Shown here piece after piece: positions 7,462-32,199 of a DNA stretch of 33,235 nt (positions are counted from its first letter, which is position 1; each line of letters begins with the position of its first letter). This DNA is from Ilumatobacteraceae bacterium (GTDB taxonomy: Bacteria; Actinomycetota; Acidimicrobiia; Acidimicrobiales; Ilumatobacteraceae), in assembly GCA_007117775.1 (NCBI GenBank), contig SKFX01000071.1, forward strand, positions 1 through 33,235, in the 5' to 3' direction. Under the pieces are notes generated by a model. It saw only the letters and a list, made by a program, of their open reading frames with translations, was not told where the DNA came from and ran no database searches. A program made the translations under genes and the position numbers.

Positions 7462-8121
7462 TCAGTTGGTGACGAGGATCCGCTCGCTGGCGAAGGACCC
7501 GACACCGATATGGCGGCCGTCGATCTCAACGGTGAGTGTGCCGTCGGGTGATGCGGCGGTGATGGTGCCAGCGCGGCCGGGCTGAATGGCGGCTGATTCG
7601 AGGAACTCGAGCAGGCCGGGGGTGAACTCGAGTTCTTCGGGGATCCGTGAGACGGTGAAGTTCGATCCGACTGCGAGTGTGGCGAGTGGCTTGGAGTCCG
7701 GATTCTCGTAATCCGATCCCGGAATCGGGTTGCCGTGCGGACAGGTGGTCGGGCTGCCGAGCATGCGGTCCATGGCCTCTTCCACCGACTGGCTCATGAT
7801 GTGTTCCCATTTGCCGGCCTCGTGGTGGGCCTCGGCCCAAGACAACTGCAAGACATCGGTCAAGAAGCGTTCGGCGATCCGGTGGCGCCGCACAACGCGC
7901 TCGGCGAGTTCGCGTCCGGATGCGGTGAGGGTGATGGTCCCGTCGTTGACGATGAGGCCCTCGGACTCGAGCCGGCGGATCATCTCTGAGACCGCCGGCC
8001 TGCTCACCTGGAGTCGTTCGGCGATGCGCGCCTGGATGACTTCGACGTCATCTTCATCGAGTTCGAAGATGCACTCGCAGTACTCCTCGAACGCCGGATG
8101 ATGTTCTCCGGGGGCGGGCAT
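7462..8121 (-). CDS. DtxR/IdeR/MntR-family metal-dependent transcriptional regulator
   Basis: YCECIFELDEDDVEVIQARIAERLQVSRPAVSEMIRRLESEGLI HTH; RHRIAERFLTDVLQLSWAEAHHEAGKWEHIMSQSVEEAMDRML; CPHGNPIPG motif. Confidence 0.95.
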   Translation of the reverse strand: MPAPGEHHPAFEEYCECIFELDEDDVEVIQARIAERLQVSRPAVSEMIRRLESEGLIVNDGTITLTASGRELAERVVRRHRIAERFLTDVLQLSWAEAHHEAGKWEHIMSQSVEEAMDRMLGSPTTCPHGNPIPGSDYENPDSKPLATLAVGSNFTVSRIPEELEFTPGLLEFLESAAIQPGRAGTITAASPDGTLTVEIDGRHIGVGSFASERILVTN

Positions 8122-8168
8122 GGAGCCATGTTACCCATCGGTGCGTGACGCTGCGTCGTGGTGCTGTG

Positions 8169-8213
8169 TCATGGTCAGGGGTCATGGTCGGGGGTCATGG
8201 TCGGGGGTCATGA
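8169..8213. repeat. 13-bp tandem repeat, about 3.4 units (tcatggtc[a/g]gggg)
   Basis: 8169-8181 tcatggtcagggg, 8182-8194 tcatggtcggggg, 8195-8207 tcatggtcggggg, then tcatga. Confidence 0.85.
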
Positions 8214-8262
8214 TTGGAAACCACGGTTGCGAGTGGCTCGGCGCCATGGCACACTTGTGGCG

Positions 8263-8313
8263 ATGCGTTCACTGGATTTCCGCCCAACCCTGACGGTAGT
8301 ACGCATCTCGTAG
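8263..8313 (+). CDS. Putative 16-aa leader peptide of the ilvBNC operon (MRSLDFRPTLTVVRIS)
   Basis: Manual translation ATG 8263 to TAG 8311-8313; carries Leu, Leu, Val, Val and Ile codons and ends at the base of tandem hairpins upstream of ilvB. Confidence 0.75.
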   Translation: MRSLDFRPTLTVVRIS

Positions 8314-8342
8314 CGCGCGCCTGGACATACCAGACGCGCGCT
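8312..8342 (+). promoter_or_regulatory. Leader hairpin (protector/pause-type) of the ilvB attenuator
   Basis: agcgcgcgcctgg-acata-ccagacgcgcgct: 12 of 13 positions pair (one C-A mismatch). Confidence 0.75.
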
Positions 8343-8343
8343 C

Positions 8344-8378
8344 ACAACCTCCCCACAAGGGAGGTTGTTTTCATTTTC
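8344..8378 (+). terminator. Intrinsic terminator/attenuator upstream of ilvB
   Basis: acaacctccc-cacaa-gggaggttgt perfect 10-bp stem followed by TTTCATTTT, about 95 nt before the ilvB ATG. Confidence 0.85.
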
Positions 8379-8472
8379 GGCCCAGAATGGATCCCTGACG
8401 GCGCCGAGCCCCGCAGATGAACCATCACATCAACACGACCATCCGAGTACTTCAGACAGGACAGGACAGGCA

Positions 8473-10239
8473 ATGGATATCCCCGACGGCACCAAGATGA
8501 CCGGTGCACAGGCACTGATCAAAGCGCTGGAGAAGGAACGGGTCGAGGTGATCTTCGGTCTCCCAGGCGGCTGCATCCTGCCGGCCTATGACCCGTTGTT
8601 GGAGTCCTCGATCCGCCACGTGCTGGTCCGCCATGAACAGGGTGCGGGCCATATGGCCGAGGGCTATGCCCATGTCACCGGTCGACCCGGGGTCGCAATG
8701 GTGACCTCCGGTCCGGCGGCCACCAATCTGGTGACCCCGTTGATGGATGCCTACATGGACTCGATCCCGATGGTCGGCATCACCGGCCAGGTCGGCACCA
8801 CCGCCATCGGTACCGACGCATTCCAGGAATGTGACACCGTCGGCATCACTCGCTCGGTAACCAAGCACAACGAGTTGGTCATGGCCGGCGATGACCTGCC
8901 ACTCGCGATTCGTCAGGCCTTCCACATCGCCTCGACCGGTCGACCCGGCCCGACGCTCGTGGACATCCCCAAAGACGTCCTGCAGAACGAGATGACGTGG
9001 CATTGGCCGAGCGATGACGAACTGATCGACTCGCTGCCCGGTTACCGGCCCATCGGCAAGGGTCATCCGCGGATGATCAAGGAGGCGGCGAAGCTGATCC
9101 TCGAGTCTGAGCGGCCGATCATCTACGCCGGCGGCGGCATCTTGAAGGCCCGTGCGGCAGATGCGCTGCGCGAACTGGCCGAGATGACCGATATCCGCGT
9201 CGTGACGACATTGATGGCCCGTGGTGCGTTCCCCGATGACCATCCGTTGTGTCTGGGCATGCCCGGAATGCATGGCAATGCCACGGCGGTCACCTCGATG
9301 CAGAAGAGCGATCTGTTGATCGCCCTCGGAGCGCGTTTCGACGACCGGATCACCGGCAAGGTGTCGGCGTTCGCACCCGAGGCCAAAGTCATCCATGTCG
9401 ATATCGACCCAGCTGAACAGGGCAAGGTCCGCCGTCCCGATGTCCCCATCGTCGGCGACTGCCGCCTCGTCATCGAGGAGATCATCATCGCCATCCGCGA
9501 CCTCCTCGCGAGCGGTGTCGTCCAGGCCGACTCCTCTGAGTGGAAGAGTCGGATCTCGGGGTGGCAGGAGCAGTTCCCGTTCGCCTACGACGCGGCGGAG
9601 CCCGGTGACGCGCTCAAGCCGCAGTACTGCTTGGAGAAACTGCGCGATGCCGCGCCGGAGGGCACGATCGTGTCGTCGGGAGTGGGCCAGCACCAGATGT
9701 GGGCCTCACAGTTCTGGAACTTCACCGAGCCCTACACCTGGGTCAACTCCGGTGGTCTCGGCACGATGGGCTTCTCGATTCCAGCGGCGATCGGCGCCAA
9801 GATCGGTCGACCGGACCGCACGGTGTGGGCCGTCGATGGTGACGGGTGTTTCCAGATGACCGCCCAAGAACTTGTCACGGCCACCACCGAGCGCATCCCG
9901 ATCAAGGTCGCGCTGTTGAACAACAGCTACCTCGGCATGGTGCGCCAGTGGCAGGAGATGTTCTATGAGGAGCGTTACTCCGAGGTGTATCTGTCCACCG
10001 AGGTGCCCGACTACGTGAAGTGGGCCGAGTCGATGGGGTGTGTCGCGATCCGCGTCGAGTCCCCCGAGGAGGTGGAGCCCGCGATCGAGAAGGCGAATTC
10101 GATCAATGACCGCTCCGTCGTTGTCGAGTTCCGCGTCGATGCCCGCGAGAAGGTGTTCCCGATGGTGCCGGCGGGCCAGAGCAACGACGATGTGTTGTTG
10201 CATCCGTCGCAGGATTCATGTCGGTGGGCGCTGTCATGA
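8473..10239 (+). CDS. ilvB: Acetolactate synthase large subunit
   Basis: [88 protein letters not shown]; ThDP motif [17 protein letters not shown]...[21 protein letters not shown]. Confidence 0.97.
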
Positions 10240-10808
10240 CCGCCATCACACCTACGACCGAAGTTCATCACCACATCTTGTCGGTGCTGGTCCAGAACCG
10301 CCCCGGCGTGCTGGCGCGCGTCGCTGGGCTCTTCGCCCGCCGCGGGTACAACATCTTCTCGCTCGCGGTCGCGCCGGCCGAGGAGGAGGGGATGAGCCGG
10401 ATCACGATCGCCGTCGATGTCGAGTCGACCCCGCTGGAGCAGATCGTCAAACAGCTCTTCAAGCTGATCGAGGTCATCAAGATCTCCGAATTGGATCCGC
10501 GCCGGTCCGTCGAGCGCGAACTGCTCCTCGCCACGGTGCGGATCGCGGCCGATGAGCGCAGTCAAGTGCTCGAATTGGTCAACATCTTCGAGGGCAAGAT
10601 CCTCGCGGTCGGTTCCGATGCACTCACCGTGAGCCTCGAGGGCCATCCTGACAAGCTCAACGATTTTGAAGCACTGCTGGGTGGATATGGCATCGTTGAG
10701 ATGCAGCGCACCGGGCGCGTTGCATTGCCCAAGCTCGACCAGCAGTCCCGGCTGCGCACCATGGTGACCCCGGGATCATCTCCCGCTGAGAAAGGAAAGG
10801 TGAGCTGA
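10236..10808 (+). CDS. ilvN: Acetolactate synthase small (regulatory) subunit
   Basis: [50 protein letters not shown] domain; ATGA overlap with ilvB. Confidence 0.97.
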
Positions 10809-11837
<1,029 letters not shown>

Positions 11838-31396: not shown

Positions 31397-32089
31397 TCAT
31401 CGGTTCGGTGGGGGTGGTTCGGCATTGACGAAGACGCACAGGACGCCGTTGCGGACCTCGACGCGCACCGGTGATGCGGTGGTCACATTGGACACCCCGA
31501 CCCCCGACAGCGCCTCGAGGTCGGTGTCCTCGAGCTCCCAGCGGGTGCCGGTGATCGAGACACCCTCGCAGCGGCCATGCAGCGCCAGCAGCGAGATCGT
31601 GGTGCCCACCGAGATCGGGATCGATTGTCGGGCTGGGCCGTGGAGGAGGTGGAGGTGTTGTCCACCCCAGATGCATTCGAGCTGCTCAGCCGCGGTCAGC
31701 GCCGGATCGCCCAACGAACCGATCGCGGCGATGGTGTGGTCGAGGCGGTCACCGCCACCAGCGATCAGCACGATGCGCGCCGGGTGCAGACCGAGCGCAT
31801 GACGGACGGCGAGTTCGGTGTCGGTCAGGTCCTTATCGGGCGAATGTCGGACCACTTGGCTGTGACGGCGCGCCCATTCGAGGCCCTCGGTGGTGATCGA
31901 GTCCAGATCACCGATGACCACATCGGGTTCGATACCGGCGGCGAGCGCATGGTCGAGTCCACCATCGGCTGCGATGACCACTGCCGCATCGGGGATCGCT
32001 GCGACGGCCACTGCATCGAGCGGCGCTGCCCCGGTGATGACGACAGCGCAGTCGATGGCGGTGTCGTCGGTTCGGGCTGTGTCGCTCAT
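31397..32089 (-). CDS. thiN: Thiamine pyrophosphokinase
   Basis: VVIAADGGLDHALAAGIEPDVVIGDLDSI...HSPDKDLTDTELAVRHAL...IAGGGDRLDHTIAAIGSL. Confidence 0.95.
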   Translation of the reverse strand: MSDTARTDDTAIDCAVVITGAAPLDAVAVAAIPDAAVVIAADGGLDHALAAGIEPDVVIGDLDSITTEGLEWARRHSQVVRHSPDKDLTDTELAVRHALGLHPARIVLIAGGGDRLDHTIAAIGSLGDPALTAAEQLECIWGGQHLHLLHGPARQSIPISVGTTISLLALHGRCEGVSITGTRWELEDTDLEALSGVGVSNVTTASPVRVEVRNGVLCVFVNAEPPPPNR

Positions 32090-32090
32090 C

Positions 32091-32182
32091 GTCCCTCCGC
32101 CGGCATTATCCGGATCAGGTTCATGGGTCGGTGGCGGCAGCCACCCTCTCAGCCTGTTGGTCCCACAAGCTCCCCGGTCGGT
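32091..32182 (-). ncRNA. TPP riboswitch (THI element), approximate bounds
   Basis: Minus strand: ggggagcttgtgggaccaacaggctgagagggtggctgccgccaccgacccatgaacctgatccggataatgccggcggaggga, then cgATG of thiN. Confidence 0.95.
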
Positions 32183-32199
32183 CTCGTCATCTCACCATA

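Follow-up and report, generated by a model that had tools for sequence, protein, structure and literature searches.

The window, that is, the whole stretch of 33,235 nucleotides that was analysed, belongs to the fragmented assembly of an Ilumatobacteraceae genome (G000, contig C183) and carries, 3' of the leader described here, the genes ilvB, ilvN and ilvC of the matching pathway, recognized with NCBIfam models. The upstream neighbour is a gene for a DtxR-like regulator (7462-8121, minus strand), which diverges from the ilv genes, and therefore the terminator found in the leader is not the terminator of that gene. The interval from this gene to the ilv promoter contains a tandem repeat, GTCATGGTCGGGG (3.5 copies, 8168-8212). 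Elsewhere in the window a TPP riboswitch above the gathering score (32074-32186, minus strand) is located 5' of genes for a thiamine pyrophosphokinase, a solute-binding protein and an ABC permease.

Table 1. Features of the ilvBNC leader and operon, in window coordinates.
Feature	Position	Strand	Remark
-35 box TTGCGA of leader promoter	8227-8232	+	conserved in relatives; inferred promoter
Extended -10, TGG-CACACT	8247-8255	+	conserved in relatives; inferred promoter
Leader-peptide ORF, MRSLDFRPTLTVVRIS-stop, 16 codons	8263-8313	+	probably leaderless; ATG 8263, TAG 8311-8313
Tandem Val codons GTA GTA (-5/-4)	8296-8301	+	presumed stall site; conserved GTA at -4
Ile codon ATC (-2)	8305-8307	+	
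Hairpin 1, proposed antiterminator-type element	8312-8342	+	arms 8312-8324 / 8330-8342
Intrinsic terminator	8344-8377	+	stem 8344-8353 / 8359-8368, 10 pairs, 5-nt loop, tail TTTCATTTT
ilvB, acetolactate synthase large subunit	8473-10239	+	NCBIfam NF005860 above cut-off
ilvN, acetolactate synthase small subunit	10218-10808	+	NCBIfam; start codon as given by ORF finder
ilvC, ketol-acid reductoisomerase	10809-11837	+	NCBIfam

Leader, hairpins and promoter

The preliminary description of this DNA had placed upstream of ilvB a 16-codon ORF with Leu, Val, Val and Ile codons, a 12/13-bp hairpin at the end of the ORF and then a 10-bp hairpin with a U-rich tail, and all of these elements were found in place. 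Hairpin 1 has 12 pairs and a single internal mismatch, and the AG of the stop codon takes part in its first pairs. The intrinsic terminator, situated between the leader ORF and the structural gene, is the sole terminator-like site in 8100-8480, with 0.1 expected in shuffled sequences. The 201-nt region folds at -91.7 kcal/mol, compared with -69.5 ± 4.4 kcal/mol for shuffled controls (z -5.1, 0/200 shuffles). An in-frame extension of ilvB to a TTG within the terminator was rejected, because the distance between terminator and ilvB does not preserve the frame among relatives. At the leader locus no Rfam family matched above its gathering score; the best sub-threshold match was RF01859 Phe_leader, with 24.3 bits against a gathering score of 55 and an E-value of 0.047.

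The regions upstream of ilvB were sampled from 80 named and 30 unnamed relatives and gave 94 distinct regions of sufficient length, 86 of which could be parsed into a leader ORF and a terminator; clustering and removal of one atypical leader (L075) reduced these to 71. The leader is present in two cultured relatives, Desertimonas flava and Ilumatobacter nonamiensis. All 71 leaders contain a short ORF ending in branched-chain codons, a hairpin that begins at the stop codon, and a terminator followed by its tail. In their last seven codons Ile, Leu and Val account for 75% in frame versus 5% and 3% in the other frames, so that a short ORF with control codons for the amino acids made by the pathway is present and its translation is predicted. 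The usual C-terminus is L-V-V-L/V-I/V-x-stop. The fourth codon before the stop (-4) is GTA in 61/71 leaders, and GTA represents 1.9% of the Val codons across ilvB genes. GUA also serves as a control codon in Corynebacterium glutamicum and Mycobacterium tuberculosis (PMC11857589, PMC13236596). Selective-charging theory attributes bias among control codons to isoacceptor sensitivity, with a preference for codons that are used heavily in relation to their tRNA (PMC1183508); therefore the rarity of GUA alone is not a full explanation of its choice.

Both hairpins covary strongly across the 71 distinct relatives. The two helices are paired in 94.6% of cells, and compensatory cells number 133, compared with 45.6 ± 4.7 after shuffling and 7-27 in slid controls; RNAalifold and pair counting located compensatory changes at 12 of the 16 pairs. 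The inner terminator stem CCUCCC/GGGAGG (8348-8353 / 8359-8364) is almost invariant in the ilvB leaders, with covariation in the outer pairs. Since leaders of cimA (see below) have GAGCCGCCC in place of CCUCCC/GGGAGG, this invariance is not a general requirement of the device. Regulation of ilvBNC by a branched-chain amino acid (BCAA) leader-peptide attenuator, as proposed in the preliminary description, is thus supported by the conserved ORF, the conserved, covarying hairpins and the pathway-matched leader codons. Two observations had been named there as incompatible with it, a lack of conservation of the leader ORF and hairpins, which are in fact conserved in the 71 relatives, and a transcription start downstream of 8370, for which several relatives with a terminator-ilvB gap of 5-20 nt leave no room for a promoter.

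The inferred promoter, TTGCGA-17-TGGCACACT, lies 7 nt 5' of the leader ATG. Among the 86 ilvB upstream regions the motif (g)gTTGCGA(a) is kept 16-19 nt 5' of the extended -10, and the -10 variants TGGCACACT, TGGCAGACT and TGGCACAAT stand 6-9 nt 5' of the leader start codon in 82/86 leaders. The combined promoter score exceeds 99% of shuffles in 93% of the 71 leaders, and that of the window exceeds all of them. The conserved spacing and the scores make it very probable that the start of the leader ORF coincides with the transcription start and that the leader is translated without a 5' UTR. Leaderless translation is reported as shown for the C. glutamicum ilvBNC leader (Morbach et al. 2000, as cited in PMC10272879) and has been reported for the Streptomyces ilvB leader (PMC8079986).

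Spread of the element and paralogous leaders

A covariance model of the element (R1) was used for genome searches and matched 212/296 Acidimicrobiia genomes and 82/397 genomes drawn across the phylum; some of the matches, such as L149 (tRNA-like) and L147, are probably due to chance. Twenty second loci were fetched, 11 upstream of cimA, 7 of leuB and 2 of ilvB. The leader codons follow the pathway, with Val, Leu and Ile 5' of ilvB and Ile runs 5' of cimA. A run of three or four Ile codons closes 10 of the 11 cimA leaders, and L117, the exception, ends in TIVIT; the leuB copies carry Val and Ile codons. The genome of the window itself has a cimA leader, MCSTDVATFIIIE followed by a stop codon (L156, G000:C86:13687-13728), with a stop-codon hairpin and a terminator. 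A literature search on attenuation of citramalate synthase found nothing relevant.

In another actinobacterial family (f76) similar leaders were found upstream of aceA, the gene for isocitrate lyase (L161-L175, together with L144, L145 and L152). They have a promoter and a short ORF beginning ATGTTTGAACGnnCGTTCAA, mostly with GTA near the stop and without a BCAA run, followed in most cases by a hairpin plus terminator. The ORF start ATGTTTGAACGnnCGTTCAA is itself palindromic and resembles a repressor operator. A further locus (L153) has a BCAA leader, MGFKDRTGLLVVVT followed by a stop codon, 5' of an isochorismatase-like ORF and then ilvB.

Ribosome position and the switching step

The position of hairpin 1 is fixed with respect to the leader ORF. 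Counted from the end of the stop codon, it starts at -3 to 0 in 71/71 leaders, its 5' arm ends mostly 7-9 nt past the stop codon, and the spacer between hairpin 1 and the terminator measures 0-4 nt in 70/71 leaders and 1 nt in the window. The leading edge of the ribosome was placed 15 nt 3' of the first nucleotide in the P site, an E. coli value assumed for this host. With this footprint, a ribosome whose A site holds codon -4 barely reaches the stop codon and would leave hairpin 1 intact (mean -18.0 kcal/mol over the 71 leaders); the mean free energy of hairpin 1 on the later steps is calculated as -12.4 (A site at -3), -5.5 (-2), -2.4 and -1.3 kcal/mol (stop), so that codon -4 would be the last A-site position at which hairpin 1 stays intact. 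In the window the value is -21.5 kcal/mol when the A site holds the second Val codon, and 0.0 with the ribosome at the stop codon. The earlier suggestion that stalling at Val-Val/Ile disrupts hairpin 1 does not agree with these values: in the model a Val stall leaves it folded, a stall at the Ile codon -2 melts it partly (-6.3 kcal/mol left), and it is lost only toward the stop codon. Hairpin 1 should hence form during a valine stall and melt once the ribosome reaches the stop codon. Since an Ile stall at codon -2 leaves little of the hairpin, valine is expected to be the main signal for the ilvB switch.

The segment ggttgcgag (8225-8233), put forward in the preliminary description as an antiterminator by pairing with ctcacaacc, overlaps the conserved -35 box and lies 5' of the inferred transcription start, and is probably not transcribed. 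The 8-of-9 complementarity does exist, but at least one such match occurs by chance in 16% of shuffles; in the relatives 6.00 of the 9 positions pair, compared with 5.96 ± 0.08 for non-cognate pairs, 8 being reached in 3/71 leaders and without covariation. A systematic comparison of the terminator arms, loop and tail with the leader segments, by cognate versus shuffled-partner scores, gave no partner beyond the two hairpins, the arms of which served as positive controls and scored strongly as real stems. Pairing of hairpin 1 with the leader start ATGCGTGCC, which resembles the 3' arm of hairpin 1, was rejected as no better than non-cognate. An extended hairpin 1 overlapping the terminator base in the C. 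glutamicum style occurs in some leaders, although not above chance: if its 3' arm is made unavailable, hairpin 1 captures a mean of 1.8 nt from the terminator stem, versus 2.0 ± 0.1 for non-cognate partners. Therefore, as hairpin 1 and the terminator have no conserved nucleotides in common, secondary structure alone gives no mutual exclusion.

These results bear directly on the three-hairpin attenuator of the preliminary description, with anti-antiterminator, antiterminator and terminator, in which ribosome stalling prevents hairpin 1 and the 5' arm of the terminator is taken up by an alternative antiterminator pairing. It is the usual textbook arrangement and is backed by mutants in C. glutamicum (PMC11857589), but here it appears unlikely, given that nothing in the leader complements the terminator 5' arm above the non-cognate level under conditions in which real stems score strongly, that the candidate ggttgcgag fails and that a ribosome at the conserved GUA is predicted to leave hairpin 1 folded. 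Somewhat less improbable, yet still not the reading we would choose, is that the main role of hairpin 1 is to pause or synchronise RNA polymerase and that ribosome/polymerase coupling or a factor (NusG, Rho), not exclusion between hairpins, decides the outcome. This would suit two hairpins without sequence overlap, the first placed where a paused polymerase could await the ribosome, and pausing by the apex of the first hairpin has been proposed in C. glutamicum (PMC11857589); it leaves unexplained, however, why the spacer is held at 0-4 nt in 70/71 leaders when terminator and ilvB are anywhere from 5 to 152 nt apart among relatives. That the terminator is constitutive and the short ORF incidental, for instance at the end of another transcript, recalls the S. 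coelicolor leader, the codons of which are reported to be without effect (as cited in PMC1262725). The divergent upstream neighbour, the in-frame codon conservation, the rare GUA fixed in place and the Ile codons of the cimA paralogues nevertheless make this explanation very improbable.

We consider it reasonably probable that the leader is a ribosome-mediated transcription attenuator of ilvBNC in which a Val stall allows the abutting hairpin 1 to hinder the terminator. Transcription would begin at the leader ATG or within 1-2 nt of it, and the ribosome would load straight onto the leaderless ORF. When charged tRNA-Val is scarce, above all the one reading GUA, the ribosome would stall with GUA(-4) in the A site and its leading edge at the stop codon, and hairpin 1 could fold; lying 1 nt from the terminator stem and flush with its base, it would hinder completion of the terminator, and ilvBNC would be transcribed. 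With ample charged tRNAs, the ribosome would reach the stop codon and cover the entire 5' arm of hairpin 1, and the terminator would fold. Steric hindrance of terminator closure, or else pausing or coupling, is what we infer from the lack of both a terminator-pairing segment and a systematic overlap. Counting against this proposal are the lack of conserved nucleotides shared by hairpin 1 and the terminator, the dependence of the direction of the stalled state on an E. coli-type footprint, the Ile codon at -2, a stall at which would come when most of hairpin 1 is already melted, and the substitution of leader codons in S. coelicolor, which according to the citation in PMC1262725 had no regulatory effect.

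More tentatively, and with rather more doubt than confidence, it may be speculated that actinobacteria possess a class of attenuators working by abutment. Such a device would have no sequence-sharing antiterminator; a stop-codon hairpin, able to fold only during a ribosome stall at a rare codon four triplets upstream, would block termination flush at the terminator base, and one chassis would be reused for ilvB, cimA and leuB (and, with a single GUA, for aceA in another family) by exchange of the control codons.

Comparison with known attenuators

The ilvBNC leader is a real, conserved element, most likely an attenuator relieved by a shortage of charged tRNA-Val or tRNA-Ile, with close precedents in Corynebacterium and Mycobacterium. 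With it, ribosome-mediated BCAA attenuation would reach into Acidimicrobiia, a class whose members are mostly uncultured; the open-access literature searched yielded no earlier report of it there. The analysis supplies a covariance model of a family that Rfam does not cover at the gathering score, and joins ilvBNC, cimA and leuB in a single putative leader-peptide regulon. Moreover, the fixed geometry of rare GUA, stop codon, hairpin and terminator opens the disputed switching step of actinobacterial ilvB leaders to direct testing.

The RF01859 Phe_leader family likewise combines a hairpin and a terminator, which is probably the reason for the sub-threshold match, but the peptide here is without a Phe run and the score far below gathering. 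The Streptomyces ilvBHC leader, MRTRILVLGKRVG, resembles the present one in having a leaderless BCAA peptide before ilvB, hairpins and a U-rich tail (PMC8079986, PMC1262725); it differs in the peptide and has no BCAA run at the stop codon.

C. glutamicum ilvBNC, of the ilvB-II motif, is like M. tuberculosis ilvB1 an experimental precedent for the logic proposed here. It shares with the present leader an ORF translated without a ribosome-binding site, LVV-type codons with GUA (its control codons being CUU and GUA), a terminator, and an antiterminator with its base adjacent to that of the terminator (PMC11857589, PMC10272879). In ilvB-II, however, the first stem (P1) encloses most of the ORF and the terminator is P2, whereas hairpin 1 here begins at the stop codon and follows the control codons in 71/71 leaders; antiterminator and terminator overlap there at a GCC trinucleotide, with no conserved overlap here. 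M. tuberculosis ilvB1NC (PMC13236596, 2026) has a comparable ORF, LVVI-type control codons including GUA and a terminator before ilvB, and exchange of LVVI for AAAA abolishes induction of ilvB1. Its antiterminator and terminator are described as mutually exclusive folds, in contrast to the abutting hairpins here, which have no conserved overlap, a comparison made with the published description of that leader. The logic proposed for it is like that proposed here, in that a stalled ribosome permits the antiterminator and a ribosome at the stop codon prevents it, and the calculated energetics of hairpin 1 match the antiterminator behaviour of the M. tuberculosis model.
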